A DNA stretch of 64,000 nucleotides from Massospora cicadina (Eukaryota; Entomophthoromycota; Entomophthoromycetes; Entomophthorales; Entomophthoraceae). A model generated the notes under the pieces. That model saw nothing but the letters and a program-made list of their open reading frames with translations, made no database searches and was not told the origin of the DNA. A program made the translations under genes and the position numbers. Shown piece after piece: positions 2,371 to 40,635 of this stretch; position 1 is the first letter of the stretch, and every line of letters starts with the position of its first letter. The stretch is from the NCBI GenBank assembly GCA_022478985.1, contig JAKSZP010002669.1, positions 124,001 through 188,000 on the forward strand, read 5' to 3'.

Positions 2371-3543
2371 TGTTGGGATTTTTGCCCATATTCCCAGCCT
2401 GCTAGATTATCTGGTGTCACTAAGGGAAAATTCCCTAAGGCGAAGTGAATCAGAAATCAGTTGGCCTGAGTTTTGGAGGAACTACATTTGGGGGATTTTG
2501 GGATATTCACCTGGTCATATCTTTAAGGGATCGATCTGGATGAATACTTAATATCTCATCAGGCGGAGTGGCCAACGAAATAGGGGCATCTGATAGTGAT
2601 TAACTATCAGGTGTGCCAATTGGGATCAGTTGTGTTTCATAACCAACTGACTGGGAATGAATAGTGAGTTGTGAGGTGAGTGATGCCACCTACAACTAGT
2701 GATTTGATTGGTTGATGAAGTGACCTGCCATAATGGGTAATAAGTCCCATTACCTAAGCAGGTCGCTAGCCAATTATGGTTGGTTCGCTTGGATTGACAG
2801 GAAAACGTTGGGGACACGTTTTCTGACTCTATCCAGTTTGAGGTCTCAAAGATGTCCAATGATAGAATCCTAGCCAGGATGGGGAAGACCATCACTGCTG
2901 AGATGAGGAAGGGTGATTCAATGGCAACGGCTGCCATTTCATTGAAGAGGTGTCAACTGAGGGTTAGACAGCCGAATCCCCTACTATATAATTCCTAGGA
3001 TTTACTATAATAAAAAACACACATTAAAACCCCATTTTTTAGTAGAAACCATCATTTTATAAAACAGTATTATTAGTAGTAGTAGTAATATTGTTGATTT
3101 GGTGTATAGTTAGACTATCAGCTTCCATTGTTACATTCCATCTCAAGGATATTATTGCAGAAGGCAATAATTGGAAGACTCTCAGAGAGAAGAGTAGAGA
3201 TCTGAGCGGGGATCTAGAGATGAAGGGAACCACAATCAGGGATAGCTGCTGACTGTGTGTTGGGCTGAAAGAGACTGTCACTGGGGTATCTTGATGAAGA
3301 TCAGGTGGACAGGAATATAGGGAACAAATCCCTATGAGTATGACTTACAGAGTATTTAATTGGAAGTACTGGCTGAAGCGTTGGGCCTAATAATAGTTCA
3401 AACTCAACTATGGATAATAGTCTCCATACTATTATCAGATAATACATTCTATACAATGCAAAGTGCACGAGGAAATTGAACCTATGCAGTAAAAAGGTTA
3501 CTGGGTTGATGAATGATAATCAATCCTTAAGTAAATTTTTACA
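2371..3543 (+). repeat. 5' LTR of element B
   Basis: It begins TGTTGGGATTTTTGCCC and ends TTTTTACA, matching 10815-11987 along its full length. A well conserved block of about 150 bp (roughly 2840-2990) precedes the TATA box. This block is also recognisable in the divergent LTR at the right edge of the window, which suggests selection on the promoter. A run of AGTAGTAGTAGTAAT follows near 3070. The antisense frame at 2937-2626 is probably incidental. Confidence 0.9.
2985..2993 (+). promoter_or_regulatory. LTR TATA box, 5' LTR of B
   Basis: CTACTATATAATTCC places a TATA element at 2985-2993. The identical sequence lies in the 3' LTR at 11429-11437, and the related LTR at the window edge has CTCTATAAATTC at the corresponding place (minus strand, around 63860). 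Its position would set the U3/R boundary just downstream. This is an inference from sequence and conservation only. Confidence 0.55.
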
Positions 3544-3588: not shown

Positions 3589-4860
3589 ATGTTGTATAAA
3601 GAAGAAATGCGCAACTTGTGGACTGAGATTGCCACTGTGAATCAGAATGCCTTAAACTCAGTGGACCATCAGGAGTTCATGGCCTTGGAAGAATGAGTCA
3701 CCAAGTTGGAGGAAGGAGTAGAAAATGTAGCCAACTTTGGGAACGAGTTACTCAGCAAAGTAAACTCATTGAAGAAGAAAGAAGGAGACCTTGTTTGAGA
3801 GGTTTTATTCCTGAAAATGGAGTGAGAAGCAGATTGCGTTTGTTTAAGAAAGTTTGGAGTGGATATCAAGAAATTGATAAAAGAAGTAGAGGACTTGAAA
3901 GCCCACAGATGTGCATGTGAGCCCAATATGGCCATTGATGCCAAAGAGAGAAGTCCTTGCATGATACTTGGGAAGATGAATACCCCAAGAAATATGCCAC
4001 CCACCTTTAATGCCATTTTGGAGATGATGCCTGAAGTCACTCCACAAGTTAGCCGAGTAGCTGAACTGAGAGAATCAGCCCAAAATGACTTGGAGGAATT
4101 TAGAGCAACACCAAAATTGCCAACATTCCATTGGGATAACGCCCCAGCATTTTTCTGACTGTTCAACATGACTATGAATGGATACGGGATCATCAAAAGG
4201 CGTTGACGGTCATGAACTGCCTGGACACCAACTGTCAGAACCTAGTGTTACCCCACTTGGAGGGGGACAGCTGGTCGTATGCTGAGGTGAAGGCGGCCAT
4301 AATGAAGGAGTTTGGGAGTCCAACCCGCATGTCAAAATGCAAGCAAGAATTTATGGGAATTCAAATTCCATAAAGATGAGTCTCTTGCTAGCTTCGAAGA
4401 TCAATTTTACCAGGAGTCACAGATCCTGGCTGGAGCAAAAGTGTTAGATGACTTTGATGCTAGAATCGCTTTGCAAGCGGCCCTTTGGCCCTATTGCAAT
4501 TTGCATCAAATGATGTCTTCTGTATTCACAATGGAGATAACTACCTCACAAATGGTAGACAACCTGAAGATTTTGGGAGCGACGTTTGATGCCCCAAATA
4601 GAAGCTTCAAGTCTAATCTGGTCCAAAATCTGAATCCCATGAAGGGAAATGAAGGAGCAAAAGAGGCTACCAACCAAACTGTGCCAGGAAATAAGCCCAA
4701 AGAATTCAGATGGTTAAGCAAGAAAGAGAAGGTCTGCTTTCAGTGTGGCGGGAAAGGACATTTTGCTGCACACTGCAAAAAGCCAAAGGATCAGATTAAT
4801 GTGGTCCAGGCCAAGGAGACAGCAGCCGCCAAAGATTTGGGAAAAGGGCCCACTGCCTAG
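3589..4860 (+). pseudogene. Gag relic of element B (coiled coil, capsid, CCHC knuckle)
   Basis: The likely start is the ATG at 3589, 45 nt after the LTR. It opens a heptad-rich segment (LYKEEMRNLWTEIATVNQNA) running to about 3900 through two or three stops. The capsid part is best seen at 4312-4620. The knuckle at 4735-4776 reads C-F-Q-C-x4-H-x4-C and lies in the open stretch 4312-4860, which ends with a stop before the pol frame. Element C has the same arrangement of N-terminal coiled coil, capsid and knuckle. Frame breaks occur around 3800 and 4160-4310. Confidence 0.75.
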
Positions 4861-7110: not shown

Positions 7111-7500
7111 AATTTGCTGATTATGAAATATTTAAATTTTGATTGGGAGTTTATCATTCAAACTGATACTTCATTGATGGCAATTGGCGCCATACTGAGC
7201 CAAGTAGATAAACTTGGGGACAAGCATCCAGTGGCATATGTGAGCCAGACACTCTCAGCCGCTGAGGGGAACTACACCATGACTGAGCGTGCATGCCTTG
7301 CGGTCATTTATGCATGCAAGCAGTTTGGGTGTATGTCCATGAAATGCACTTTAAGGTGGTGACGAACCACTCTTTGCTGCGTTGACTGCACAATCTAAGA
7401 GAACCAGAAGGATGACTGGCCTGATGGGCACTTAAGCTTCAGGCTTATGATTATGAGATAGTCCACCAAGTGGGGGCTTCTCATCAGAATGCGGATGGCT
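7105..7500 (+). pseudogene. RNase H relic of element B
   Basis: The open stretch 7105-7362 reads [18 protein letters not shown], then HPVAYVSQTLSAAEGNYTMT and ERACLAVIYACKQF. These are the TDAS and S-x-L-x-x-x-x-N-Y-x-x-x-E-x-E/A signatures of Gypsy RNase H (first Asp and Glu present). After a stop at 7360 the terminal part continues in other frames, ending with a YDYEIVHQVGASHQNADGLS-like tether (around 7444-7503) before integrase. Confidence 0.8.
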
Positions 7501-7599
7501 TATCATGGTTGCCAATGGTCCAGTTGGTATACTCGCAGGCAGATGAGCTATTACAGAGAATGGTTAAGGAAGAATCAAGAATGAGCCTCGAGAAATCCA

Positions 7600-8735
7600 A
7601 GGTGCACTTTGAAAAGCGATGGAAAACACCAAGACTATGGATGGACAAGTATTCAATACAATCAATGGGAAGTGGCTATTATTTCTTAAACTGTTGGAAA
7701 GAGCAGCAATAGTACAATTGGCTCACAAGGTTGTCAGGCATGGAGGCCTGAGAAAAACAACTGACCATATTCACCAGTATTGTTACTGGGAATCAATCAA
7801 CTATGATGTTGCAGATCATCTGGCTTGTTGCGTGGAGTGCCAGCTGCATAAACCACATAAGAACACAACTGAATACCAACTGGTCCGCTCTGGATTTGCC
7901 TGGCACATGGTGTCCATTGACATGATGGGACCGCTGGTGATGAGCACAGGAGGAGTCAAGTACATCATAGTAGCATTGACCATCTGACAAGATGGGTTAA
8001 AATGAAAGCCCTAACCAGAGTTGACGCTACTAGTACTGCAAGATTCATCTTGTATCAAGTAGTATACTGGCATGTATGTCTGCAAGTCCTACTGAGTGAC
8101 AATGGGACCAACTTCACATCTCATGTGATCCCAAGGCTAAACAAAATAATGGGGATCCAAGGAGTTGTGTCAGTACCATACCAGCTGGAGACAAATGGAC
8201 TGGTAGAATGGGTCAATGGGATGCTGGCCATGACGCTGAGAAAGCTAGTCGCAGGGAGAACTTCCGCGTGGGGAATGTGCCTGAGTTTGGTGACGTTCGC
8301 CTACAACATTAGTCATCATACAGCAACCAGGAAAGACGCCATTTGAATTACTATATGGAAGAAAGGCCGCGTTGCCGCCAGTATTATATTTGGTAGTGGA
8401 ACCTACATTGGGGATGAGTACTGAGCAATACTTGAACTTACTGACAAGTATCCTGATCAATATGCAATTGCAAGCATTCAATACAACCTTGAAGAAAAGG
8501 ATACAAGCAAAATTGAAGGATGACAAGAACTGACCGGCATTAGAAGAATATCAAATAGGGGAAAGAGTCGCCTATTGCGATATGCATGGTTTCAGCTATT
8601 TAAACAAATTAGATGTGTTGTGGTCTGGTCTGTTCAAAGTAATTACCAAGACAGTGAATGATGCTTACTCCATCAAGAATTTCTTGGATGGAAGAGTTGT
8701 AAATTAAGTCCACACTAAGTATATAAAGCGTTGGA
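7600..8735 (+). pseudogene. Integrase relic of element B (HHCC, DDE core, GPY/F-like tail)
   Basis: The HHCC zinc domain is visible as VVRHGGLRKTTDHIHQYCYW and CCVECQLHKPHK (7728-7863). The DDE core follows: SIDMMGPL (near 7915), LLSDNGTNFTS (8088-8120) and NGLVEWVNG (near 8194-8220), so all three acidic residues are present despite a stop near 7985. The C-terminal tail at 8565-8735 (YCDMHGF, LDVLWSGLFKVI, DAYSIKNFLDG) matches the tail of A. No chromodomain is seen. Integrase would insert the cDNA with a 5-bp duplication, consistent with the flanks of B. Confidence 0.85.
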
Positions 8736-9169
8736 TTGAGGAAAAAAATTAAAAGAGTTCCCAGAGGACCAATGAACTATTAAGTTGGTCATGTCCTAAT
8801 GATTAGGTCAATTCCAAAAAAAGGACCTCTGAACCAATCTAGATGGTTAAGTCCGAATAAAGGACCTCTAAACCATGGAAAACTGCTAGGTTTAAGTACC
8901 CAGGACCCAGTTTGGGGGAAAAGTTGGACCTTTGAACTGAAACAAGGTCAAGTCCCATAGGAAAAAAGAAGAATAAAGATAAAAAACAGATAAAAAATAT
9001 TGGAAAAAAATATAAACCCGCATAGATAAAAAAAGCCAATATATTTTTATAATTTTATTTTTATTGATCATCCTAAGTATGGGGATGATTTCGCCTATGT
9101 CACCTCTTGGGGGAGGGAGGATGGATCGCGGTAGAAAGAAACAGCCCATCAAAATTGATATGCAATCAG
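8736..9169 (+). other. Spacer after integrase of B, no gene seen
   Basis: This stretch holds no recognisable coding sequence. A short direct repeat, AAAGGACCTCTRAACCA, occurs near 8820-8836 and 8861-8877. The end of the antisense frame probably lies near 9170. Confidence 0.4.
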
Positions 9170-10233
9170 ATGCTTGCGAGGGTGAGACCTACATGAAACC
9201 ACATTCATTGAGTGGATCCCGAACCCTGAGAAAATGTGACTAGGGAAGGAAAATTGAAATGTCAGAAGATGTCAATTGTGAAACCCCTGAGAGAGAAGGA
9301 AAACAGCAATAAAGAAAGAGGCAATTGGCGAATAACCCTGAGTAATCTGATAAGGCACTGGAGCTGGAAGATTTGTTTTGAGTGCCTGCTGATGGGCTTC
9401 ATTGAGAACACAAGACATGTGAGCCAGCAGCAAAGAAGGAATACTCAATGGGGGTTGTCAAATCGTGCCCCCAATTAATGCCATCAGTGGAAGATAGCGA
9501 TGGGAAGCTCCAGAGAAGAGGTAGTTGTGCAGAGAGTGGATTGCATTCTGCAACTGGTGACTACAGGCTTCACGGAAGCTAAAGCTGAATGACTGGTGGA
9601 AGCCAGGTGAGGCTGGAAGCTTCATCAACCAACTTCAAAGAACTTGGCCAGCAAAGTGAAGAGCATAAGCGGCAGCATCCCAATCCAGAAGGTTGTCCAG
9701 ATCATAGGGATTTAGCACTAATGTCAAAGCCTCAGTGACTTGGGCCCAGAGTTCAGCGTAGGGAGCTTGAAGTGTGTGCTGTTCCCAATTGAGAGTTCAG
9801 AAACCAGTATAGCGGGTTTGTAGAATTGACCAAGTCAGAAGAGGAACTCAGGGAGCAAGTCTGACCCAGCCAGGAACAAACAATCCAGCGTGACTGGCAT
9901 AATCTCCGGAGCATTGATGATGATGTTCAGAGCATTAGCAAAAGGAGCTGAATCCAGGAGGGTTTCAAAGTCCAACTCAGGAACTGACTATAAGGGAAGA
10001 GTCAGCTGAGAGTTGTTCAAAACGATGGCAAGCCTGGTTTTGGAGGGACTGGTTACCATTTCTGGTAATTTGATGGAAGGACTAGCCGCTTGCACCAGAC
10101 TAGCCATATGAGTCCTGGAAGGACCATAAAAGAGGTTCCGTCGAGCATCCTGACTCATCTGCTGGAAGAGATGGAGGTCTGTATCAGACAGACTGTTGAG
10201 GAGCTGCTGGTATTGTGACTTGTAATTTGACAT
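9170..10233 (-). pseudogene. Antisense accessory ORF of element B, unrecognised protein
   Basis: Read from 10233 toward integrase, the minus strand stays largely open for about 1 kb with only a few stops and at least one frame change (first stop at 9988). It starts MSNYKSQYQQLLNSLSDTDL and has a NLFYG motif at residues 33-37. It later carries SDLLPEFLF followed by a stop and LGQF (about 9850-9815), and then, in a shifted frame, AELWAQVTEALTLVLNPYDL (about 9770-9710). Element C has a collinear counterpart on the opposite strand (19281-20390): MS...Y...SL...F...NLFxG with constant spacing, GDLLAEFLFVLGHF, and SAVWAAFEALYL. This argues for a real ancestral gene, not a shadow ORF. I do not recognise its family. 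Antisense extra ORFs in this position are known in some plant Gypsy elements, but I cannot link them. Confidence 0.6.
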
Positions 10234-10262
10234 ATGAGCTGGACTAGAGGGGGGATGTCAGA

Positions 10263-10270
10263 CTTATATA
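10263..10270 (-). promoter_or_regulatory. TATA-like box upstream of the antisense ORF in B
   Basis: On the minus strand CTATATAAG lies about 30 nt upstream of the ATG at 10233. Element C has TATAAA at 19248-19253, about 30 nt before the ATG of its antisense frame (19281). The paired placement suggests a dedicated promoter, with a very short leader. Confidence 0.4.
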
Positions 10271-10801
10271 GAAGTTGACATAATGCACTCTATAATTCAT
10301 TAAGCTCCAATTTTGAAGAAATTAATTTTAAAATTAATGAGATAAGCTTTCCGAGGGAAGAATTAAGAATGACTTACAGCCAAGAGGTTATGAGCAAAAT
10401 AATGAGGGCGAATAGAAATAAGTATTTTTAATTAAGCTGCAAAACAAACATCTACAGCAAGATTCTCCTGTCTAAGACAAGGAGAGAATCAGGAATTCAA
10501 GGACGCCAGACTGAGAATCCTGAATATGACAGAGGTCATATACCCTGATGGGGAAAAACTGGATCCCAGGACTAATAATGTCATGAGTAAAGCGATCAGC
10601 CCAGCATGACAGAAGGTCATGGGGACCACACTCTGAGAATTTGGTAGTGAAAAGGAAGAGGAAGAACGCCATATGCCAAAGGTCATCCCAAGCAGGATTG
10701 AGTATTTATGAGTGTACTCCACTTGAACCAATAAAGTACTTGATTAAGTGTCCAAAATGGTGTTCTCATGCCCCAGTCCTTTTCTCGATGGAAATCTAGG
10801 C
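10271..10801. other. Non-coding interval between antisense promoter and PPT of B
   Basis: No gene is recognised. It contains a perfect 18-bp palindrome ATTAATTTTAAAATTAAT (10321-10338). The motif AGGTCAT occurs three times between about 10530 and 10690; its meaning is unknown. Confidence 0.4.
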
Positions 10802-10814
10802 AAGAGGGGAGATG
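10802..10814 (+). other. Polypurine tract of element B
   Basis: AAGAGGGGAGATG directly precedes the TGTTGGG start of the 3' LTR. Such a purine run primes plus-strand synthesis in LTR retroelements and fixes the plus orientation of B. Confidence 0.75.
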
Positions 10815-11987
10815 TGTTGGGATTTTTGCCCATATTCCCAGCCTGCTAGATTACCTGGTGTCACTAAGGGAAAATTCCCTAAGGAGAAGTGAATCAGAAA
10901 TCAGTTGGCCTGAGTTTTGGAGGAACTATGTTTGGGGGATTTTGGGATATTCTCCTGGTCGTATCTGTCAGGGATCAATCTGGATGAATACCTAATATCT
11001 CATTAGGCGGAGTGGATAACGAAATAGAGGCATCTGATAGTGATTAACTATCAGGTGTACTGATTGGGATTGGTTGGGTTTCATCACCAACTGATCAGGA
11101 ATGAATAGTGAGTTGCGAGGCGAGTGATTCTGCCTGCAACTAGTGAGTCAATCAGTTGGTGAAATGACCTGCCATAATGGGTAATAATTCCCATTACCTA
11201 AGTGGGTCGCTAGCCAATTATGGGTGGATTGCTTGGATCGAGAGGAAAACGTTGGGGACACGTTTTTTGACTCTTTCCATTTTGAGATCTCAAGAATGTC
11301 CAATGACGGAATCCTAACCAGGATGGGGAAGACCATTGCTGCCAAGATGAGGAAGGGTGATTCAATGGCAACGGCTGTCATTTCATTGAAGAGTTGTCAA
11401 CTGAGGGTTAGACAGCCGAATCCCCTACTATATAATTCCCTAGGATTTACTATAATAAAAAACACACATTAAAAACCCATCATTTAGTAGAAACCGTCAT
11501 TTTAGTAAAAAAGTATTATTAGTAGTAGTAGTAATATTATTGATTTGGTGTATAGTTAAACTATCAGCTTCCATTATTACATTCCATCTCAAGGATATTA
11601 TTGCAGAAGGCAATAATTAAAAGACTCTCAGAGAGAAGAGTAAAGATCTGAGCAGGGATCTAGAGACAAAGGAACCGCAATCAGGGATAGCTGCTGACTG
11701 TGTGTTGGGCTGAAAGAGACTGTCACCAGGATATCTGGATGAAGATCAGGTGGACAGGAATATAGGGAATGAATCCCTACAAGTACAACTTATAGAGTAT
11801 TTAATTGGAAGTACTAGCCAAAGTGTTGGGCCTAATAAAAGTTCAAACTCAACTACAGATAATAGTCTCAATACTATTATCAGATAGTACATTCTATACA
11901 ATGTGAAGTGCACAAGGAAATTAGCCTGTGCAGTAAAAAGGTTACTGGGTTGACGACCAATAATCAATCCTTAAGTAAATTTTTACA
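10815..11987 (+). repeat. 3' LTR of element B
   Basis: It is the same length and layout as 2371-3543, with TATA at 11429-11437 and the conserved 150-bp block before it. Differences from the 5' LTR are mostly transitions and small indels. The flanking CACGG at 11988-11992 pairs with CATGG at 2366-2370. Confidence 0.9.
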
Positions 11988-12615
11988 CACGGGCAATCAC
12001 CCTCCCATTTGGTCATGGCTATTTGGCGCTCAAAAGCTTCAGAGGAAGCTGTCTCCAATGAGGTGATAAATTGATTGAACAGGGGATGTAAGAGCTATCT
12101 AAGAGTCCCTGGTAATCACTAGTGATACTTTTTAGGAAGAAAGATGGCACTACTTGGGTGGCCATTGACTACTGGAAGCCTAATAGCATCACAAAGAAAG
12201 ATTAATATCCTCTTCTGAAGATTGATAATGCTTTTGATTGGCTTGTGTGGTGATAACTATTTTTTGCCATAGACTTGTTATTGGGGTATTGGCAGATCGA
12301 GTTGCCAATAGCAGAAAGGGAGAAATGCAACATATCACTTTGAGGGGTTGTTCCATCCCACGTGTATGCCTCAAGGGTTGTGCAACGCCCTGGCTATGTT
12401 CCAGCAGGCAATGGACACCATCTTGAATGATTTGAAACTGTCCTGCATTCTAGTCTACCTCTATGATATTAATGTGTTCTTGCAGATGTTCATAAAACAT
12501 CTCAACCACTTAGAACAAGTGTTCCCCCAACTTGCTGACTATAAAATAAAAATAAAGGCTCAAAATTGTCACTTTTTAAGGAGCGATTGGAATACCTCAG
12601 GTTTTTGGTAGACTC
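11988..12615 (+). pseudogene. Element A resumes: reverse transcriptase, N-terminal and palm part
   Basis: Joined across B, the A frame reads Q-H-I-N-T-G-N-H-P-P-I. Element C has H-T-I-D-T-G-D-H-L-P-I at the start of RT, which shows B inserted into a continuous reading frame. RT blocks follow: SEEAVSNEVI, a RKKDGTTWVAIDYW motif near 12137-12177, QGLCNALAMFQQAMDTIL (12363-12425) and the catalytic box at 12456-12467, which reads Y-L-Y-D instead of Y-x-D-D. The frame runs into the start of element C at 12616 within an LRFLVDS-type motif and continues at 28049. Confidence 0.8.
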
Positions 12616-12996
12616 TGTTAAGTTTTCAGCTGATGGTGCAAGCTAAAATATTTAACAGTGAAATTGAGGATATAAACTCACTTTTCAAATGAAACTCCTT
12701 ATTGTAATTAGGAAGTAGATTCTCTAATAAACTACAATAATAGCCAAGTAACTCCGGTATGCTCATCATTCTTAAGTCTACTGGCACCTACAAATACAAG
12801 ACCTTCTGTCTTTGTACAAAATCAGGAAATTATTCCTCTATAATCAGGACTACTTCTCTGGCAGGCAACTATGTACTTTTCTTTGGGAAGAATAAACACA
12901 CACAACTATCTAATATAGATGTAATGGTGACAGATACAAATATCTATCAGATGACAGATGGATAATAATTAATAAACTAAGCGACAGTAGTTATTA
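12616..12996 (-). repeat. 3' LTR of element C, distal piece
   Basis: It matches 26726-27110 of the 5' LTR (TGTTAAGTTTT...). It ends in GACAGTAGTTATTA (12983-12996), which is repeated at 18283-18296 as the target duplication of LINE F. Confidence 0.9.
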
Positions 12997-13518
12997 TTTT
13001 TAAATTTTTAAATCTAAAGTTATTGCGAGGAAGGCAACCATGGGATGGACACTTCCAAATTTGACCCAAAAGAGACAAAACTTAGTAACAGGGAAGGCAC
13101 CCCAGAGAAGCGATGCTATCTCTTGTTGCCAGTGGGAACGCCACTTATGGGGAGGGGAGGGAACGTGTGAAGGGGCCGTAGCCACAATTGAACATGTGTG
13201 GAGGAAAGAGTCTGATTTGATGAACTAAACTGGGAACCAGGAGGAGACCAGCTGTTGGCGACGCGGTAGGAGGTATCAAAACATCCACGCCTGAAAGTGG
13301 TCCACCAAATGAGACCGGAATCTGTGGACAGCTTCTGGGAGGGTGGGGGTGGAGCCTGTGATGGCATCCAAGACAATCGTGTGGATAGTCCACATGGCGA
13401 TTGCAATCACCAGAGCACAGAGGGAGGGTGAAAGGGGGAGGCCATTGATAAAGCAAACATATCACTTGACAGACTGAAGGGATGTGTTTGATCCTGGACC
13501 AGCAGACGTTGAACTTCG
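12997..13518 (-). other. 3' untranslated region of LINE F
   Basis: About 520 nt between the ORF2 stop (13519-13521) and the A/T-rich tail. Open minus-strand frames exist at 13116-13465, but they carry no motif I recognise. Confidence 0.5.
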
Positions 13519-16500
13519 CTATATCACTTTAGAGGTAGGACACTTCTCCAGGCGGTGGAACACCGTTCCATACTGGCCACACATGACGCAGGATGAGTGT
13601 AAAGCGTTGAAGCGCTCAGCCATACGTTACACCCGCCTCAGGCAGCGCCACTCATGGGAACAGATCTGAGGCTGCAACAGAGGATGGTGTGCGTATTTCC
13701 AGATAGTTTTTTGGGTCTCAATGGAGTAAGGGATGTCCATCATGTCCAGGTAGTCCACCCTGGATAGGACATGGGGCCGTGTGGGTATCACGCCATCTTG
13801 AATGGGTAACCCCTGTACCTCTTGTGTGAACTGAGGGGAGGGGCAGCCTCTCTGGGCTGTGTGTCCGCTAATACAAATTCTCCACTCAGCGCTCCGCATG
13901 GAGAGGAGGATTAATTTGTAGTGGGTTTTAGTCCTGTGAGGACCTGTGGCCGATGGGTGTGAAGCCAGGTATTTCATCAGGGAGTGAGGGTTTGATGGAT
14001 TTTTAAGGCCCAAGGCGTGGGAGAAGTTGGAGCTGGCCACGTGGGACCAGTGTTGGGAGGGGAGCATAGGGGTGGTGACGCCACAATCCAGGTGCCCAGG
14101 ATCTTGGCAGCATGGGCTTTGAAGGCAAGCAGGCCCATGCCTCCATGATGATGAGGGCCAAACATGACCTCTAGCCATACTGGTGGTGGGCGGCCTGACC
14201 AAAGCCATCCTTGCAGCAGGGCATACAAGGATTTGAAAAAGCTTGGGGAGAAGGGGATGGCGTGGGCTCCAAACCAGACTTTGGAGAGGAGCATAGAGTT
14301 GGCTAAAACAACCCTGCCAGTAAGGGAAGTAGGGTGGGCTCTGAGGGAGGCGATGAACTTTGTCACGTTGTCTAGGATATGACTCTCCATTACTGCTGAT
14401 GCGTACCCGCCTGCCTCCACCCACATGCCCAGATGGCAGACCGGCCCTATGGTAGGGCGTGGCACAAAGGGGAGCACCAGTGGGGCGGGGTGGGGTGAGC
14501 TGGGAGGGCGAGCACGTGTGCGAGCAGATGGGCCGGGCTGGGCACTGGTTGCTGGGGCCCAGCAGGTTTGATACTGACCAAGGAGGATGATTTTGTTTTG
14601 GAAGCATTCAGTGCAGCATTACTTACCCGGGAATACTCCTGTATGAGAGCTTCAAGTGCGCGTGCATCTTTATTATTAGACACCCCAACCACGCAGTCAT
14701 CTGCAAACGCCATCATCTTGACTGGGGCTTGGCCTGGCACATGGACCCCAGTGAGTTGGGCATTCACGTTTTGAAGTAGTGGGTCAAGGCTGAAGTTGTA
14801 TAAGAGTGGGATAATGGGGTCCCCTTGTTGCAAGCCCCTTTGAGGGTGGACTACTTCCGTTAGGAAGCCAGGGCCACGTACTGCCATTGTTGCAGATTCT
14901 GTGAGAAGAATCACCCAGTTGATGAAGCGAGGGGGTAGGCGAAATTGGTGGAGGCAGGCCCTGAGGTATTCCCAGTTTACTCTATCATAGGCCTTCTGTT
15001 GGTCCAAGAATACAAGTGCCCCAGAGGCTGTGGACTGGCATGCGTTAGCCACAGAGTGCACGTTGTCCCAAATCAACCTTCTGGGGATGAAACCGAATTG
15101 TTCTGGGGAGATGGTGGCAGATGCTACAATCCCTAAACAGTTAGGCATGATTTTTGTTAAAATTTTTGTATCCATGTTAGTTAAAGAAATGGGGCGCCAG
15201 TTGGCTAAGTCTAGCTTGTCCCCTTTCTTGAAGAGTGTGATGGTGAAGGCCTCTTGTCCTCCTGGTAGGAGGCGCGTTTCCAGAAGGTTTGGTTAAGTGA
15301 GGCAAGCAGTAGTGGGGATATATATTTGAAGTACTTTTTATAGAATTCATATGGAATGCCATCTGGGCCTGGGAATTTCTGGTTTGGTGCACCGCAGATG
15401 GCTGTCCATAATTCATTTGGAGTAATCATTTTCACTATTTCTGGGTATTGGGAAGTGATGCAGATGTGGGTTCAGTCAAGAAATTCTGCCACTTCAGCTG
15501 GCTGAATTGGATCAGATCGGTATAACTTGGAGTAATACTTTTGTGTTTTAATTGCCACTTTGGCTGGAGTTTCCAAAATGGAATCATCCGATCTTTGCAC
15601 CTGTGTGCAGGCCACGCTCTGGCATAGTGCGAAAAAAATAAAAAATATGCGGTGCACTTGTTGCCCTCTATAATGCGTTTGGCCCTGTACTGAACACAAA
15701 CCTGATGTTTGTGTTGCCTTTTGAGCGCGTTGATGTGGGTGGCTACCTCTGCCCAATTCTGGCCCCATGCAGGGCTGTATCCTGTGGCTGAGATGTTGGA
15801 CTCCAGGTGTGCCAACTCTGCCAGAGTGCGCGAGATGATGGCTGATGTGGCTCATGAGCGTCGGGAGGGAGAGGTGGTAAGAGTGGTGGATGGTATCCTC
15901 TTTGAAGGCTGCCTATGTGGATATGGGGTCCACGCAAAATGGTTTAACAAACTCTTTTTGCCAAAGTTTCTGATTCCACCCAAATGGAAAATCCTGGTGA
16001 CGCAAGTTTGGGAGGGCGGAGTTTGCACCAATGTGGGGCCTTAGCCACTGTGACAGGTAGGTGGTAGGTTATTGAGACCAGCCAGTGGTCGGAGAATTCT
16101 ATTTTTGTTGTTTGGAAGTGGGAAATGTGAGGTTAGAATTTTGCCGGTGTAGGATAAGGTCTACGCGGGTCATGGACCTTAATTAGCCATTGTGGATGTG
16201 GGGTTGCATCATGTTTTCAAGCAGCGGGGCTCGCCGCGGCAGCGCATCCATTAACCCAAGGGTGGCCTTTAGAACACAAATTTCTATGTGACCCTGGGGG
16301 TGTGGGAGGAGGAAGGCCAATGGTCCGTTGGTGTGTTTAGCCAACAGTTCATATTGCTGACTATGAAAGGGTCTGGGGGTAATGGGAGGGATTTGACTGA
16401 CAATAAAAATTCCTGACATTCTTGTGCACAGGTTGGGGCATAGATGTTGATGATAGCATGTGCCACGTCAGCCCATGAGAAAGTGACAACAAGGACTCAG

Positions 16501-16764
16501 CCATTGAGGAAAGATTCTGATGATAAAAATTTAAAAAAATTGTTTTTCTGAACTAGCACCCCACAGTGCTCTGACCAAAAGGATAGGGATGGGAGGAGCA
16601 TGGTTTTCCAAGCATCCTCAGAACCTTGCAGACAGTGGGACTCCTGGATGGCTAGGATATCCATGGGTAAATTTTTTTGTAAAAAAACTCAGTTTTCTAG
16701 CCCAGGATGGTGAGGCCTTGAATCAGGCAATATTCAATGTCCTTAAAGTGAAGGTTTCCCCCAT
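13519..16764 (-). pseudogene. LINE F ORF2: endonuclease, reverse transcriptase, C-terminal CCHC
   Basis: It starts at the ATG at 16764 (MGETFTLRTLNIA, then a stop) and ends at 13519. The endonuclease shows LAIQESHCLQGSEDAW (catalytic Glu, about 16650-16600) and IINIYAPTCAQE (near 16455-16420). RT blocks are PGPDGIPYEFYKKYFKYI (about 15370-15310), EQFGFIPRRLIWDN, GALVFLDQQKAYDRVNWEYL, RGLQQGDPIIPLLYNFSLDP and the catalytic M-A-F-A-D-D (14707-14696 for FADD). The C-terminus carries C-V-M-C-x7-H-x4-C (13590-13540), typical of LINE ORF2. It nicks target DNA and primes cDNA on it. Several stops and frame changes break it, but the longest open block, 15175-14447, covers the RT core. Confidence 0.9.
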
Positions 16765-18180
16765 CGCACCTTAGGTGTGAGGGGTGGGCACCTGGGCCCA
16801 CTAGCCTCCTCTAGATCCCCATGGGCCTTCACAGCAGCACAGGTGTTTGCAGCAATGCTATCAGTAGTTTTGTTGATTTTAGCAGAAAGGTTCGCGTTGG
16901 CTTTTGCCTTCGCTTTTTGTTTCCCCAACATTGAACAAATTTTTTGCGGTGCGGATGAGTTTGGTGCACCAATGATTGGGTTGAAAAAAAATTTTCAGTT
17001 AGGCTGGACCCCAAGTCAGTTTTTATCGGAGCTTGGTTGCAAAGATTGGGTAAAATTGATTCACCCATCGGATCCTCAGATTGGGTGGCTCAATTGGCAT
17101 GGGCTTCCCAATCTGATTGGTTGATGGATTCCCAAGTTGCTTCTGCCGCAAAGTTTTTGATGTCCTCCTAGCATTGGGAATGTGGGATAGTGGTGGTGAC
17201 TTTGGCTGCTTCCTTGGCCGTGGCCCTGCGGGCCCACTTGGCCTTCTTCTGCTCTTGTGGGAAAATGGGTTTTACCAGTAAGTAGCAGCCTTGTGCTCCC
17301 CATGGGAAAGCCTCTTTGGTGCTTGCAGTTGGTTCATAGTGCGCCTCTCTGCTGGCCATAGCTGCTGAGGGATGCTCTTGGAATGTGATGCCCTCCTTGG
17401 TGGGGCATGCATGTGCCTTATGGCCAAACGTGTCACAGTGGGTGCAGATGGGGGCGCGCTGTCCATGGTTACCTGGAAAGGGTGGGTGGTATGCCCTTCA
17501 ATATTGATATATGTGGAGTGTGGGATCTGGGTTAGGTCCTTTTCAATCTCCTTGGTTGGGGTCAGAACTGCAATGGCTTTGCTGGTGCACAGGTGTGGCA
17601 TCAGCATAAAGTGTTGCATCTCAAAAAATTGTATTTCACCATAAACGGTGAGATCATCTTTCAGGTGCTGCTCCAAAATGGCACATTTTACCATAGTAGG
17701 CAAAAAGTCAAACATGAGGAAAATTGGTTGGATTTTGTCCATCTGGTGCATTTAGTTTCGATGACCCATTGCCCTTTGGGGAGGTCAATCACTATGTGCA
17801 CTGCAGCAGCTTTGTCTGCTGCCTCCTTGTTTTTGGAACTGAGGTCCAGCCAACTGCATGACATGGAGTGAGATGCGACATACACCATGGTCAGGAAAAA
17901 GTGTGCACCTCCCCACAAATTTTTCCCATAGAGCTGTTTGTTGGATGTCCAGAAACACATGGACTCCATATTCTACCAATGAGAGTGGTTGGGAGTGCGG
18001 CATGTTGACGTACTGGTTGCATCATGCTTGCCAAGCGAGGATTTCCGGGGAAATAGTGACTGCCAGTTTTTTTATACTTTTTTCTATTCTGCCAGTTTCT
18101 CTGGGGCGTTTTTGAATGTTTGAGGCCGCAGGCCTACCACCTGCTCCTCTTACCTTACTTGCCCAACTGCTCCCAGACAT
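16743..18180 (-). pseudogene. LINE F ORF1: RNA-binding protein with CCHC knuckle
   Basis: A plausible start is the ATG at 18180 (MSGSSWASKVRGAGGRPAAS). The central part (17751-17460) ends in a domain resembling the ORF1 fold of plant and fungal LINEs. It is followed by C-T-H-C-x4-H-x4-C at 17446-17405. A Lys/Ala-rich tail (GKQKAKAKANANLSAK) ends at 16743, overlapping the start of ORF2 by about 20 nt, so the two ORFs were probably tightly coupled. Stops near 18010 and 17785 and frame changes show decay. Confidence 0.75.
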
Positions 18181-18282
18181 GGGCGCAGGGTAATCTCCTC
18201 TGTGAGATTATCAAACTAGAATCATACTTGAATTGAATAAGTTGCAAAAGTGATTGCAATGAGAGAGAAAAGTATTTTTTCT

Positions 18283-19227
18283 GACAGTAGTTATTAATGA
18301 TCAATAAACTAGTAAATGATGATCAATTGATGTTTTATTAATTGGCCAGGCGCCAGTATTATATATCTCTCAGGCATCTCCTGGCTGAACTCGTCTATTA
18401 GATGAGTTCATTCATATTATTCAATCCTCTGCTGGTCATGACAATAATTATGAAAAATCTCAAGTCAATTTGGCCCATGATTGACTAAAATAACAATCAT
18501 TTCAGCCTGATTGGAGGCAATTATACTCTCATAATTAGGACGACTTTGGGTTTTGAACTCAATATCAAAATCTTCCTAATTAGAACTACATCATAACTCG
18601 ACATCTAACAATAAATGGGGAATAAAAAATATATGATCATAAAAGATTATGCACCCCAATTTAGGATGTCAGCAGGCCTCTCAATAGCACTAATTACGCC
18701 CATAATCAGGATGACTTTGGATTTTGAACTCGACATCAAAATCTTCCCAATTAGAACTGCATCATAACTTGACATCTAACAATAAATGGGGAATTAAACA
18801 TATATGATTATAAAAGATGATGCACCCCAATTTGGGATGTCAGCAGGCCTCTCGATAGCACTAAGTATACCCATAATCAGGATATCTATGTTTAAGTGCT
18901 TAATTAACAATTTCATTAATTGAACCCAACTTCCACCTTAGTGCATTAAGATTAATGCACTAATTTATGAGGTGCAATTTAGTTAATGCTGTGGGACCAC
19001 TTTGCACCCAAGTGTACCCATAATCAGCCATAATATAATAATATCATAGCTATTAAAAGCTATGATAATTGGGCACCTCAGATGCAATTAGAGCCGTTAT
19101 GAGGTGAATCTGATTTATCAGATTATGCAGATGAATCAAAAGGATCAAAGGATTCATCAATGGAAGTAATCTATCAGTATTGATTGTTTTTCAAAGGGTT
19201 TATTTTAAAAACCATCAAAATCTAATA
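18283..19227 (-). repeat. 3' LTR of element C, proximal piece
   Basis: It matches about 27097-28043 and ends ...CATCAAAATCTAATA where the other LTR ends TCTAACA (one C to T change at the terminal CA). It contains two tandem copies of a 171-bp unit (18531-18701 and 18702-18872) plus a partial third. The same duplication is in the other LTR, so it predates insertion. Confidence 0.9.
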
Positions 19228-19243
19228 TTTCCCCCACTTGACT
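19228..19243 (-). other. Polypurine tract of element C
   Basis: On the minus strand AAGTGGGGGAAATA lies directly before the 3' LTR start. It fixes the minus orientation of C. Confidence 0.7.
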
Positions 19244-19247
19244 GGAA

Positions 19248-19253
19248 TATAAA
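19248..19253 (+). promoter_or_regulatory. TATA-like box before the antisense ORF of C
   Basis: GGAATATAAACCC places TATAAA 33 nt before the ATG at 19281, within 30 nt of the LTR edge. Element B has the same arrangement on its opposite strand. Confidence 0.4.
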
Positions 19254-19280
19254 CCCTGAATTTTACCAAATTCATTTTCA

Positions 19281-20390
19281 ATGTCTGAAAACAGCTCATC
19301 CTCTGCATACCACAATTTTGTCACTTCCCTCAAACCCAAACAGCAGCATCAGTTTAGTTATCTTCCCAGAAACATGTGCATGAATTTGTTTTGGGGCTCA
19401 CTCCAGGCAGCAGAGTTAGGCCAGCTTTTCTCATGCCAACTGTCATGACATCAACTCAGCCTGAAACCATCATTGAGAGGAAGTTGTCCAAGTTGTGGAT
19501 CCTACCTGAGGATCAATAGGGTATGAGCTCAGGTCTCGTGCTTCCACAACTGTCTCAGCAGACAACTTCAGCCGCTCTTCTGATCTGAGAGAGCCAGCCT
19601 TTTTGCTCCAGCTAGTTTATTGAGATGGTGATCTTCTGGCGGAGTTTCTCTTTGTACTTGGCCATTTCCCAATGGCCCAAAACTATAGTGCACTGCTGGT
19701 GTCAGCCAACTATTCTTGTTGAGGCCAACTGCTCAGCAAAACTTGGGCTGAATACAATTGTCTTTATAACCCCATTCATCTATTGCTGGTCAAAGATACC
19801 TCTGTTTGACCTCAAGAGTTTGTTCAGGTTGACAGCTTTGTGGAGGAGGTTCTTGGTTCCTAGTCCGAGCCACTTGAGAATTGGCCCAATTTTGCTTCCT
19901 CTTTGGGTTTGAATACCCATGACGTTCATGATATTCATTTTTGCTCAGCCGTTTGGGCAGCTTTTGAGGCCCTTTATCTGGATAACGCTGATGAATACCT
20001 CCCCAGGATGGCCATAGTCAGCCATCTTATGCGCCTTTTCCCTGACTGGATGCTTTCAGGTCATTTTTTTGCATGTTCCCCCTCTAATTGAGTGGTGGAA
20101 AACCCAGGTTTATTACGTTAGATTGTTGACCCCAGAAATTTATCAGTATCAAACTGATTTTCTAGTTGACTGTCTTCTCTTGGGTGCATGTTTCCCACCC
20201 AATTGCAGGCTCAATTGGGTAACTATAAATGGTTTTTGTGCCTCCTCTCCCCATAATTCGCTGTGAGTCATCTTCAATGAGTGCATGGCGCATCTGGCTC
20301 TATGCCATTATGGCCCTTTTTCTTGTTGCCAGCAACTAGATTGGGCTAAATTGGCGCGCGAAGACAAAGGTTTGGGGTTCTGAGTTGCCT
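19281..20390 (+). pseudogene. Antisense accessory ORF of element C, unrecognised protein
   Basis: Plus-strand frame running from the 3' LTR toward integrase, opposite to the other genes of C. It starts MSENSSSSAYHNFVTSLKPK and has NLFWG at residues 35-39. Later segments are DGDLLAEFLFVLGHFPM (about 19622-19675), SAVWAAFEALYLDNADEYLP (about 19935-20000) and, after a frame change, PLIEWWKTQVYYVRLLTPEI (about 20077-20140). The N-terminal residues Y, S-L, F and N-L-F-x-G are spaced as in the B antisense frame with a constant 2-residue offset. A stop follows residue 55 or so, and others occur. The function is unknown; conserved Trp/Leu-rich helices are all I can see. Confidence 0.6.
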
Positions 20391-20399: not shown

Positions 20400-20620
20400 A
20401 GCTGAGGAATAAAATTCATTTTATTTATTAAAATTTATAATTTTATTTTTACTTGAAATATAAAATCTTATTCTCTTTTCTTTACTATGTATATAGATGA
20501 TTGAATTTTTATTCTTTTGCATTATTATATATTTTTTTATTATTATTATTCTTTCTCATAACTATTATTTTCAATTAATTATATATGCTTATATTAAAAT
20601 TCTTCTCTTTTGATTGAGCC
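20400..20620. other. AT-rich spacer between antisense ORF and integrase of C
   Basis: A strongly AT-rich tract (for example ATTATTATATATTTTTTTATTATTATTATT near 20520) with no coding signal. It probably separates the convergent 3' ends of integrase and the antisense frame. Confidence 0.4.
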
Positions 20621-21850
20621 ACTTTTTAAACTTCATTAGGAATTTAGCATGAACTCAATTATATACATGACCCAAATTTCTCTCCTTAATAGTGTAAGAA
20701 AAGTTTGAAGTCTTCTCTATAGCTTTGAATGAACCAACCCAAATGCGATTTAACTTGTAAATTCAGCCTGAACCATGGGTATTACAAAATAATACTTCAT
20801 CCCCATAGGAAATTTGGGCAGATTATATCAGGTTTTTTGATCTTTTTCATGTTGGGCCTTACAAAGTTTGAAGTTATTATTGAAAGCCTGGGCTTGCAGT
20901 TTAATTAAGGTCTCTGCAAGCCTCTTGACATACTGAGAATAGCTCAATTCTTGGGCTCTTGTAATAAGGAATACAACAATGGTGGTAAGGCTGTTAGTTC
21001 TCATATAGAAGTTGGAATGGAGACATCTTTGTGGCTGAATGGTAAGAGATGTAGGCAAAAATGGCCAAACTGAGGAATGTGCTTTATTCAGAGGGCTTCT
21101 GAGAAGTCAGCTTTCTTAAGATATTGACAAGTGTTCCATTAACTTGTTCTACTGCACTTGTCTCTGGGTGGTATGGAGTTGACAGAACACCATGCACCCC
21201 CATTAATTCATTAAGCTTCTGGAGAATAACTGCAGTGAAATTTGTGCCATTATCTGTCAATATAAATTGAGGACATCCATGCCAATGAATAACTTGCTCC
21301 AAGATGAATTTAGCAGTTGTTGAGGCTCCTAAGTCCTGAATAGCCCTGTCTTCGACCCATTTTGTTAAGTGATCAATTGCCATAATAGTATATTTGGCTT
21401 TCACATTGCTAATCATAAGGGGTCCAACCACATCTATAGATATAGTGTGCCAAGCAAATTTGGGCCGAACAAGCTAGTATGAAGTAGCTTTTTGAAAGGG
21501 TTTTTCCCCTTGGCACTCTTGGCAACAGCTCAAAGTTTCATGGATGTCAAAATGCATTGATTCCCAATAGTAATTTGCTTAAGCTGCTCCTTGGTTTTCT
21601 TAAGCCTCCATGGCCAGTAGCCTTATGAGCAGCCAAAATTAGACCTGCTCAAGCTGAGGAACGTGGAATATATATTTTTTATCAATCACCTTGAATAAGA
21701 CTCCTTTTTCAGTCTGGGTATCCTTTCTTAATTTGGAGAGAATTTTCTGCACTTGTTTGGGCTCATCAAAAGTTCCATTAACCATCTTCTGGAACAAGGC
21801 ATCCGCCAGCTGGCAGAGGGTTGCTACAATGGGCAGACGGGACAAACAAT
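20620..21850 (-). pseudogene. Integrase relic of element C
   Basis: The DDE core is well preserved: [40 protein letters not shown] and [20 protein letters not shown] within 21431-21084. The HHCC region lies around 21660-21480 with broken frames. The C-terminal tail (KLQAQAFNNNFKLCKAQHEK, 20920-20830) is weaker. The first aspartate of the catalytic triad (the IDMMG position of B) is just upstream of 21431. Stops show it is inactive. Confidence 0.8.
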
Positions 21851-26725: not shown

Positions 26726-28043
26726 TGTTAAGTTTTTAGCTGATGGTGCAAGCTAAAATAACTTAACAGTGAAATTGAGGATATAAACTCACTTTTCAAA
26801 TCAAACTACTGTTTGTAATTGGGAAGTAGATTCTCTAATAAACCTCAATAATAGCCAAGTAACTCCAGTATGCTCACCATTCTTAAGTCTACTGGCACCA
26901 ACAAATACAAGATCTTCTGTCTTTGTACAAAATCAGGAAATTATTCCTCTATAATCAGGACTACTTCTCTGGCAGGCAACTATGTACTTCTCTTTGGGAA
27001 GAATAAACACACACAACTATCTAATATAGATGTAATAGTGACAGATACAAATATCTGTAGATGACAGATGGATAATAATTAATAAACTAAGCAACAGTAG
27101 TTATTAATGATCAATAAACTAGTAAATAATGATTGATTAATATTTTATTAATTGGCCAGGTGCCAGTATTATATATCTCTCAGGCATCTTCTGGCCAAAA
27201 TCATCTATTAGATGAGTTCATTAATATTATGCCAATCCTCTGCTGGTCATGGCAATAATTATAAAAAATCTCAAGTCAATTTGGCCTATGAATTGACTAA
27301 AAATAACAATCGTTTCAGCCCAATTGGAGGCAATTTTACTCTCATAATTGGGATGACTTTGGGTTTTGAACTCATCATCAAAATCTTCCCAATTAGAACT
27401 ATGTCATAACTCAACATCTAACAATAAATGGGGAATAAAAGATATATGATCATAAAAGATTATGCACCCCAATTTGGGATGTCAGCAGGCCTCTCAATAG
27501 CACTAATTATGCCCATAATCAGGATGACTTTGGATTTTGAACTCGACATCAAAATCTTCCCAATTAGAACTGCATCATAACTTGACATCTAACAATAAAT
27601 GGGGAATTAAACATATATGATTATAAAAGATGATGCACCCCAATTTGGGATGTCAGCAGGCCTCTCAATAGCACTAAGTATACCCATAATCAGGATATCT
27701 ATGTTTAAGTGCTTAATTAACAATTTCATTAATTGAACCCAACTTCCACCTTAGTGCATTAAGATTAATGCACTAATTTAGAGGTGCAATTTAGTTAATG
27801 CTGTGGGACCACTTTGCACCCAAGTGTACCCATAATCAGCCATAATATAATAATATCATAGCTATTATTAGCTACAATAATTGGGCACCTCAGATACAAT
27901 TAGAGCTGTTATTAGGTGAATCTGATTTATCAGATTATGCAGATGAATCAGGAGGATCAAAGAATCTATCAATGGAAGTAATCTATCAGCATTGATAGTT
28001 TTCTCAAAGGGTTTATTTTTGAGTCAACCATCAAAATCTAACA
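26726..28043 (-). repeat. 5' LTR of element C
   Basis: 1318 bp, TGTTA...TAACA ends, matching the split 3' LTR with most differences in the first 250 bp. It contains a 171-bp tandem duplication (27344-27514, 27515-27685). The flanking GACTC at 28044-28048 equals that at 12611-12615. Confidence 0.9.
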
Positions 28044-29520: not shown

Positions 29521-30240
29521 TGGATGTTTATTGGGGGGTAGGATATGGTGGGTTGTGGAAAACATTGGAGTTTTTGTGACCCTGCTACTATTGGGAGAGC
29601 ATGCATTATGGCATGCTGGAGAGTCAGAAAGCTGTTGTTAGTGCCAATTAGAGAAACCTTTCCACAAGACCACATACCAGCTGGTTAAGCCTCAGTTTAC
29701 CTGGCATACCATTTCTCTTGATGTGGTGAGGCCTCTGCCAACTGGTGCAAACTGCTCCAAGTATATACTAGTAGCAATTGATCACTTGAAAAGGTGGGTG
29801 GAAGCAAGAGCCATCAGCAATTTAGGGGCTGTCACCACCACTAAGTTCAATATGTAGTGTGACATACAGTGACATGACTGCCCAGAATTTATTCTCATGG
29901 ACAATAGAACAAATTTTGTAATGCATGTCTTGCCCAACATGAATAAACTAATAGCAATCTGTGGGTCTCAATGACACCATACCACCCTGAATCTAATGGG
30001 CTGGTTGAATGGGTTAACAGAACTTTGGTGAACATTCTCCACAAGCTTGTAAAGGATTTCCCCTCTGAGTGAAGTACCCACCTATTCACCACCATCCTTA
30101 TTTATAATACTAGCTACCATTTTTGACAAGGAAGAGTCATTTCCAATTACTTTATGATAAATATCTGGCTTTTCCAGCATTGCTTTACTCCTGTGTGGAA
30201 GACATCAGCAGAGTATAACCACAGCATTAACTGACCAGCT
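29520..30240 (+). pseudogene. Element A: integrase zinc domain and DDE core
   Basis: Blocks seen through frame changes are: CCQCQLEKPFHKTTYQLVKP (partial HHCC, about 29632-29690), ISLDVVRPLPTGANCSKYIL (about 29712-29770), FILMDNRTNF (about 29890-29918) and NGLVEWVNRTLVNILHKLVK (about 29997-30055). The catalytic D, D and E are still visible. Confidence 0.75.
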
Positions 30241-30714
30241 TAATGGACACATTGATAAAACTAAAGCTTAATCCACTAGTTTAGCTAAGAAGATTTGCAA
30301 TCATATAGCTGACCAAATTAGATGTAGGAGACTCCCACAGCTCGTTGTAGGAGATTATATCTTGTTCCATGACCAACATGGCTTTGGAAGGAAGAACTTA
30401 ATGGACACGCTGATAAAACTGAAGCTTAATCCACTAGTTTAGCTAAGAAGATTTGCAATCATATAGCTGACCAAAGTAGATGTAGGAGACTCCCACAGCT
30501 CGTTGTAGGAGATTATATCTTGTTCCATGACCAACATGGCTTTGGAAGGAAGAACTTAATGGACACGCTGATAAAACTGAAGCTTAATCCACTAGTTTAG
30601 CTAAGAAGATTTGCAATCATATAGCTGACCAAAGTAGATGTAGGAGACTCCCACAGCTCGTTGTAGGAGATTATATCTTGTTCCATGACCAACATGGCTT
30701 TGAAAGGAATAACA
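30241..30714 (+). repeat. 158-bp tandem triplication in the integrase tail of A
   Basis: Three near-identical units at 30241-30398, 30399-30556 and 30557-30714, each beginning TAATGGACAC. The unit encodes the pre-tail segment (KKICNHIADQ, RCRRLPQLVVGDYILFHDQH). 158 is not a multiple of 3, so each copy changes frame. Copies 2 and 3 are almost identical, so the triplication is recent relative to the age of A. Confidence 0.9.
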
Positions 30715-37636: not shown

Positions 37637-38782
37637 GGAGTTCGTAATCGGCTTGAAAGGTTGCGTAAGAGCTAAACTATGCCGATTAAAACGTTTAACT
37701 TGAGTTGCGATAACAAGCTATGTCAAGTATAGGATCAGATTATCAAAACGAGCCGCTAAAAACAAAGCCGTCGATTCAACTCAATGCCACCGAAATTTAA
37801 ATATAAGATCGATGGATGCTTGGCCGAAAAGGGTAAGGTTATCTAGTAATAAACGGGTAACAATTTTGAACCAACAAGGCGACCAACGAAACCGGGTTCA
37901 CCAACTAAAAAATACCTGAACCGACAGAGCGATTATTGGAACCTTCAATTTAATAAAAATAAACGATACGCCAAGCGGTTTGGCCTTCTAACCCCTTACC
38001 GGTTTAATGTAAACTTACCTACTTTAAAAAGACTTCCTTCCCCGAAGTATATAAAAGTTAAGCTCAGTTCCAACCTCGTAACTTTATAGTCAATCCAAGC
38101 CGTCATCCCCCAGCCTTTGAAAGGTGGCTCCATCGAGCCACCGAGATTTGTCGATCTCTTCCTAGTCCCAAATTTAGTAACTACTGATTTATCATTCGAA
38201 AGTGTTAACCTTCATTAAAATCAATCTTACTCGAGTTGATCAGTTTCCCACCAATCAGATCCAAATTTCCCGTTTGGCAGAAGTTTGATTCCAATCCAAG
38301 GTTTTAGCCTTTACCCATCCAATCATCACCCAAGTCATGAAAATATTGGATGGAATTAATTACGCATTAAGGATCTTTTTAACCGACTTTGAAAAGGGAG
38401 AAGGTTCTCAATTCGACCTGTATATATGTTTTTTTTCTTTTTTTTTCTATGTTTGTTCGCGCATAACTCTGAAAATACTGGACCGATTTGGATGATCATC
38501 TCCAAAAATCGAGGATGCTCCAACTTAGGTCCCATTTTACTTTTGTAAGTATTGGGCAAGTATATGCCCATTAATTTAGCAAATATATCAAAATGGACTC
38601 GGAAGCGATGGATACTTGTAGGATTAATATAACTCCGGATAAATTAAATTCCGGCATCGGTGAATCGATAGCTTTGAAGCACTTTTGATATGTCCTATGG
38701 CTGGGGGTGTTTAAAATTTAGTCAATATGAGCTCATAGCGGGTTGAGCTTAAATCATTATAGTTGGCTATCGTCTTGTATAA
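37637..38782. other. Upstream region of AROM
   Basis: About 1.1 kb with no gene seen; it should hold the AROM promoter. The base before the ATG context is pyrimidine at -3 (CTCC-ATG), a weak start context. No clear TATA box was found. A stretch near 38455-38500 (GCGCATAACTCTGAAAATACTGGACC) resembles sequences I associate with dispersed repeats, but this is unproven. Confidence 0.4.
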
Positions 38783-39520: not shown

Positions 39521-39671
39521 TCAGATGATAAGCTCACATTGTAGCCTATAAGCTGTGCCAGCACTAATCTCGAGCCACTCAGACTAACAGCTCCACTGTT
39601 GCTCTCGTGGCTGGTGAGTTGATTATCCTAACTACTTAATCTACTTAAACTCTAATACTGATTTTTGTTGA

Positions 39672-40510: not shown

Positions 40511-40635
40511 AAAAAAAATTTACAAACTCATTTTCTATAGAGACCCACTAAAATTGACCTCAAGGTAGTTTAACAAGACCTAAACTTATTGTTTATACAA
40601 ATATTTAATCTGAAGGTAGTTATAGTTGAAAATTT

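Follow-up and report, generated by a model that had tools for sequence, protein, structure and literature searches.

Two long terminal repeat (LTR) retrotransposons, probably of Ty3 type and termed here elements B and C, are found in a 64,000-nucleotide stretch of the genome of the cicada-parasitic entomophthoralean fungus Massospora cicadina (assembly GCA_022478985.1, contig JAKSZP010002669.1, positions 124,001 to 188,000); this whole stretch is called the window. The two elements share a homologous protein-coding gene, situated between integrase and the 3′ LTR and antisense to gag-pol, which likely makes an accessory protein that aids propagation of the elements.

In element B, whose sense strand is the + strand, the antisense gene occupies 9150–10233 on the − strand and its frame starts at 10233. 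In element C, with its sense on the − strand, the gene occupies 19281–20339 on the + strand and starts at 19281. An earlier note, made from the letters of the window, had placed both frames between integrase and the 3′ LTR, with correct coordinates and strands. It had also described the frames as long; natural copies are indeed open over long stretches, but the window copies are broken by stops and frame changes. Read in a single frame, the window B gene has 12 stops, with in-frame stops and a frameshift near 9730–9770, and frame changes are also needed to read the window C gene through. Both window elements are dead copies that have decayed, to a large extent through CpG-to-TpG mutation.

The genome searched for other copies comprises 1.47 Gb in 16,968 contigs. 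DNA searches scored the best 40 places of 7104 candidates for the B gene and the best 40 of 642 for the C gene. From these, 39 B copies (3.5–5.5 kb each) and 39 C copies (1.0–1.3 kb each) were taken, making 40 per family with the window copies. All 40 B copies and 31 of 40 C copies have their longest stop-free stretch in antisense, with maxima of 266 codons (B) and 263 codons (C). The B antisense frame has a majority stop at 9151, and 37 of 39 C copies carry TAG as codon 353; the gene is therefore ∼360 codons long in B and ∼352 in C. Among recurrent in-frame stops, i.e., those at positions with a stop in >10% of copies, TGA accounts for 110 of 128 in B and, upstream of codon 353, for 84 of 92 in C. 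At the one B stop site inspected, the codon varies among copies as TGA, CAA or CGA, which is the mark of CpG decay. TAG is present in 5 of 40 copies at each of two B positions, and here CpG decay of CGA is no explanation. The genomic copies L009–L047 and both window LTR pairs display TG/CA/CG polymorphism at identical sites, a form of decay that is consistent with cytosine methylation.

The relationship between the two antisense proteins is faint in the window itself. Three collinear antisense tblastn matches are found (expect values, E, of 0.012, 0.06 and 0.06) with spacings that agree within ∼10 codons, and a similarity judged from the window copies alone is suggestive only. Profiles built from natural pieces, five for B and six for C, align by hhalign with a probability of 97.7% and an E of 2e-12 over 310 columns at 15% identity. 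As a control for orientation, each profile was compared with six-frame segments of the copies of the other family at a threshold of E ≤ 0.1. The B profile gave 42 matches in 37 of 40 C copies and the C profile 34 matches in 29 of 40 B copies; all 76 are antisense, and the best has an E of 6e-15. By these profile comparisons, homology between the B and C antisense proteins extends along the greater part of each. The clearest common blocks are DLLxEFLFxLxxF, a C-terminal block around DCLxLxxCFPP and an LPxMA block.

The earlier note had proposed a similarity beyond chance, and the alignment and profile matches, all antisense, support it. The N-terminal residues said to keep a constant offset of 2 are all present (Y8/Y10, SL14/16, F23/25 and NLFxG33/35), as is the second motif pair, DLLPEFLF in B and DLLAEFLF in C. 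The proposed pairing of AELWAQVTEAL with SAVWAAFEAL does not hold; the profile alignment sets A.WAAFEAL...LPRMA of C against AILSLHNYLF...YLPLMA of B.

The gene is abundant. A protein search with the C piece L059 produced 146 matches, at 55–100% identity, from the best 145 scored of 9938 candidates, and a search with a B piece produced 150 matches, at 77–100% identity, from the best 150 scored of 24,964. Every scored candidate matched in both searches. At a first look, before scoring, there are 24,964 places for B-type and 9938 for C-type genes; candidates were chosen by the gene itself, so element copies without the gene are invisible to these counts. In a 55%-identical family, L087/L097, integrase adjoins the antisense gene on the opposite strand. 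Judged from these sequences, the antisense gene is common to B, C and intermediate families.

The antisense protein was under purifying selection while the elements multiplied, and this selection was about as strong as that on integrase. Variants were counted per copy with CpG-type sites excluded; those in 4 or more copies were classed as shared and those in one copy as singletons. Singletons are mostly neutral changes that followed insertion; most shared variants date from the active lineage. The frame references were the natural copies L017 and L022. With the frame of the window B copy as reference the signal is blurred because of the frameshift (30 nonsynonymous to 31 synonymous shared variants in the best frame).

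In the B gene, shared variants are 9 nonsynonymous to 55 synonymous, as against 221 to 73 for singletons, a ratio of ratios of 0.054 (p 5e-20). Variants present in 8 or more copies number 0 to 21, and those in 2 or more copies 99 to 102 (p 4e-9). The signal is also found with transversions only (shared 4 to 13, singletons 110 to 22; p 1e-6). By codon position in the L017 frame, shared variants fall 9/1/39 and singletons 85/66/64. In the C gene, 40 copies give 11 to 14 shared and 212 to 56 singleton variants (p 3e-4). Integrase, used as a positive control in its sense frame (7500–8760, 35 copies), gives 20 to 42 shared and 273 to 71 singleton variants (p 8e-13), with a ratio of ratios of 0.124 beside the 0.054 of the B antisense gene. 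No codon signal was detected in any of the six frames in the 8770–9140 gap, the 10240–10810 stretch or the 3′ LTR (smallest p 0.29).

Across more distant copies, the ratio of nonsynonymous to synonymous substitution rates (dN/dS) was calculated for 13 sequences, i.e., L059, L051, L054 and ten fetched stretches of 55–76% identity, the others being 55–82% identical to L059. The 78 pairs have a median of 0.29 and a range of 0.20–0.92. The 0.92 is from the within-C pair L051–L054, where such a value fits neutrality of recent mutations. In the other five frames the medians are 0.39–1.11 with 10.8–20 stops per copy, compared with 2.0 stops in the frame of the antisense gene. The lowest of these medians, 0.39, is in a frame of the gag-pol strand with 20 stops per copy, and it is read as a mirror of the free third positions.

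These data bear on two other explanations. One is that the frame is a shadow open reading frame (ORF), open by chance opposite a sense gene or within an unconstrained stretch. The window copies, broken in every frame, and the weak raw match between B and C would suit such an origin. Yet majority stops over 8300–10813 in 21 copies are more numerous in the sense frames (39, 42 and 59) than in the antisense frames (34, 24 and 37), selection is in the antisense codon positions, and the cross-family profile matches are antisense without exception. A shadow ORF is thus extremely improbable, and chance was rejected on the strand and codon-position tests. The proposal in the earlier note of a conserved antisense gene rather than a shadow ORF is borne out by the long antisense frames of natural copies, the constraint on the antisense frame, which is mirrored only more weakly in one frame of the opposite strand, and the homology of B and C; the dN/dS of the frame also lies below 1, as a conserved gene was expected to show.

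The second explanation is that the antisense RNA matters and not a protein, in that it forms duplexes with the gag-pol RNA and acts as input for RNA silencing or as a brake on copy number. An antisense transcript would yield double-stranded RNA, and such a role has been discussed as possible for antisense transcripts of plant elements (PMC7264820). In its pure form, however, an RNA role does not predict that the first two codon positions are constrained and the third left free, and as the sole explanation it is highly improbable. An RNA role could exist in addition to that of the protein.

The protein-coding gene may have its own antisense promoter. A predicted TATA box, TATATAA, is found 37 nt before the ATG of the B gene (10264–10270, − strand), and another, TATAAAC, is found 33 nt before that of the C gene (19248–19254, + strand). 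TATATA is present at −35 to −37 in 36 of the 39 B copies that cover the site. In C, TATAAA is found 33 nt before the ATG in 20 of 21 copies, and TATAAAC in 90% of 40 copies. The B site ranks third in conservation among 554 upstream 7-mers and the C site tenth among 74. These predicted sites are suggestive of a promoter with a very short leader. A separate antisense messenger RNA would then come from a promoter that lies between gene and 3′ LTR and has the TATA box at −33/−37 as its mark.

Searches of Pfam, NCBIfam, PHROGs, PDB sequences and 5.8 billion predicted proteins revealed no credible relatives of the protein; the search of the last set, which includes proteins of Entomophthora muscae, reaches solely relatives with common short exact words, and gave no relative among 1881 candidates at a threshold of E ≤ 0.01 or among 7997 at E ≤ 1. 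The five B and six C pieces gave no Pfam match at E ≤ 5. Two PDB matches to a single enzyme (E 0.75 and 1.2) and one PHROG match (E 0.15) were treated as chance. The protein has a pI (isoelectric point) of 4.9–5.5; its net charge was left unused as evidence, since CpG decay changes arginine codons.

The gene might instead be cargo, i.e., a captured host gene, or one from a different mobile element inserted in reverse orientation, that an ancestor of B and C passively carried. Capture has been discussed as a possible origin of antisense genes in plants (PMC7264820). A passive gene, on the other hand, would not show integrase-like constraint over many subfamilies, and no relative was found in the large protein set within the reach of that search. 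Passive carriage is therefore very unlikely. Capture followed by use by the element is possible and is compatible with the accessory-gene explanation.

A further alternative is an envelope-like or structural protein, of particle or membrane, in place of a regulatory one. Some additional genes in the interval from pol to the 3′ LTR are indeed env-like, in sense orientation (PMC7264820). The antisense protein is leucine-rich, and its 19-residue hydropathy maxima are 1.2–1.7 in four natural pieces, the upper values being borderline for a membrane segment. Against this, none of the four pieces has a strong hydrophobic segment, a reading tempered by the alteration of arginine codons through CpG decay, and the env-like genes described are not antisense. 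A structural role is quite unlikely.

Several observations weigh against an accessory gene conserved in both families. The C signal is weaker than that of B (ratio of ratios 0.21 vs. 0.05). With an initial set of 21 copies, the C test fell short of significance (shared variants 6 to 8, p 0.08, and 4 to 3, p 0.36, in overlapping pieces); 19 copies were added after it, and significance was reached with 40. All p values are nominal, as linked sites within copies were treated as independent. One frame of the gag-pol strand gives a weaker mirror signal, with 20 to 31 and 19 to 17 shared variants, and integrase is likewise mirrored on its opposite strand (26 to 36). Of the 40 C copies, 9 have a sense-strand stretch as their longest without a stop. 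In the other family checked, L090/L098, no integrase was found within 2.25 kb of the gene (L098). As for the promoter, the chance of a TATA-like site in the interval is 4% and 6% per family by single-letter shuffling, and the usual eukaryotic TATA spacing would put the transcription start almost on the ATG. Among the sequence databases searched, no sequence relative or fold points to a biochemical role.

HBZ and APH-2, the products of antisense genes of the deltaretroviruses HTLV-1 and HTLV-2, are bZIP-type regulators of a retrovirus. The likeness to the B/C gene is in antisense layout, and no sequence relation is claimed. These viral products are described as nuclear and as affecting the virus life cycle (PMC11963269). 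Most descriptions of antisense genes in LTR retrotransposons concern flowering plants, and what these genes do has yet to be settled (PMC7264820; PMC11963269). An additional antisense ORF between pol and the 3′ LTR is termed aORF-3R, and is listed for Grande, RIRE2, Retand, PvRetro13 and the Boty element of Botrytis and Sclerotinia (PMC7264820). The B and C gene has the position of an aORF-3R, behind pol and ahead of the 3′ LTR in antisense to gag-pol, and its protein is conserved like other element proteins, as seen in the ratio of ratios and dN/dS. The aORF-3R of Grande (gene23) is reported to have its own upstream promoter (PMC7264820; PMC11963269).

A close case by layout is that of the Boty-like elements of Botrytis cinerea, which carry the antisense gene brtn (Zhao et al., 2011, as cited in PMC7264820 and PMC8365987). 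Boty, like B and C, is a fungal gypsy-type element with an extra antisense gene between pol and the 3′ LTR, but its host is an ascomycete. The comparison with plant Gypsy elements drawn in the earlier note fits in layout and fails in the host, here an entomophthoralean fungus, and in the protein: the TRP28 domain (PF04195), present in 97% of Retand clusters (PMC11963269), has no match in the five B and six C pieces, and membership in plant Retand was rejected. The B/C gene also differs from plant aORF-3R genes in that its selection was measured beside integrase. In the Entomophthora genome paper, Ty3 elements are given as most repeats of these genomes and 56.8% of that of M. cicadina, and the word antisense is absent from its main text (PMC11105155). 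No description of this protein family, or of an antisense gene in entomophthoralean elements, was found in the literature searched, which lay mostly outside subscription papers. The layout is thus one already known, aORF-3R, and from its sequence the protein would represent a family for which no description was found.

Selection on a multicopy element works by favoring the copies that transpose, so the protein would aid the element's own spread. The most likely route is that of a regulator, e.g., one that limits host silencing or tunes gag-pol output. A regulatory or counter-silencing role is our preferred guess by analogy, as the enzymes and the shell are already provided by gag and pol, and in other systems antisense genes have known or suspected regulatory roles. 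The published assembly of M. cicadina is 1.488 Gb with 41.1% GC, of which 92% is transposable elements, 73% of them Ty3 (PMC9584336). A bolder hypothesis is that this undescribed protein family, constrained at least like integrase, is a counter-silencing factor that enabled the enormous copy number and helped to inflate one of the largest known fungal genomes; this is unlikely, though conceivable. Of interest is that the antisense gene is found far from plants and Botrytis and in very many copies, and that the copies themselves record selection about as strong as that on integrase, which points to a gene whose loss cost the element. In this system the expression of the gene, the location of its product and any effect on silencing could be tested, within a genome that owes its size to such elements.

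The probable Ty3/gypsy assignment of B and C is based on the LTRs, the purine tract, the B integrase domain, a weak zinc knuckle and collinear gag-pol. The gag-pol regions of the two are collinear and homologous, with 13 tblastn stretches at 29–67% amino-acid identity and E down to 6e-121; B and C are therefore sister families of LTR retrotransposons, probably of Ty3 type. They had been taken for two different elements, and they are indeed separate families but not unrelated ones.

Element B has a 5′ LTR (TGTTGGG...TTTTTACA) at 2371–3543 and a 3′ LTR at 10815–11987, which form a repeat pair on the + strand; the purine tract GCAAGAGGGGAGA is directly before the 3′ LTR. The 5-bp flanks, CATGG and CACGG, are likely a target-site duplication with one CpG change. 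An ORF at 4312–4860 (+) represents a piece of gag with a CCHC zinc knuckle, the zf-CCHC match having an E of 0.0024 and 18.3 bits, which is under the Pfam cut-off of 20.8. The integrase region, 7619–8746 (+), consists of an H2C2 zinc-binding domain at its start (Pfam Integrase_H2C2, E 7e-11), a core and a C-terminal end, and is also identified by homology to C and by codon selection. A second purine run, followed by TGTC, is found at 10247–10260, immediately ahead of the B antisense start and ∼560 bp inward of the 3′ LTR. Similar to a border between purine tract and LTR, it is possibly a relic or a site of internal priming.

Element C, on the − strand, has its 3′ LTR at 18280–19227 and its 5′ LTR at 27090–28043, a repeat pair whose outer boundaries are approximate. 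Its integrase region, at 20609–21767 (−), is homologous to that of B, with 29–51% identity in pieces. The B LTR pair displays 104 differences over 1171 aligned sites, with 51 of 81 transitions of CpG type, and the C pair displays 57 over 952, with 20 of 43. The window B and C elements are therefore old copies with CpG decay.

A profile search detected no further copies of the antisense gene elsewhere in the 64-kb window, and no additional LTR pair was seen at 28–64 kb. A broken LINE-like element (long interspersed nuclear element) lies between B and C at 13627–15855 (−), with a clear RVT_1 domain at 14450–15175. The clear host gene of the window is AROM, at 32987–37636 (−), which encodes 1549 amino acids in a single uninterrupted frame. 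The nearest named relative of the AROM polypeptide is from Entomophthora muscae, with 73% identity over 77% of the query. The AROM stretch has a GC content of 0.57–0.66, and the rest of the window is mostly ∼0.40. Tandem arrays are present at 30239–30712, 38779–39035, 39665–39914 and 58235–58534, with units of 158, 71, ∼68–91 and 75 nt, respectively. An inverted repeat at 40176–40512, with 84-nt arms that are 92% complementary and 169 nt apart, is possibly a small inverted-repeat element.

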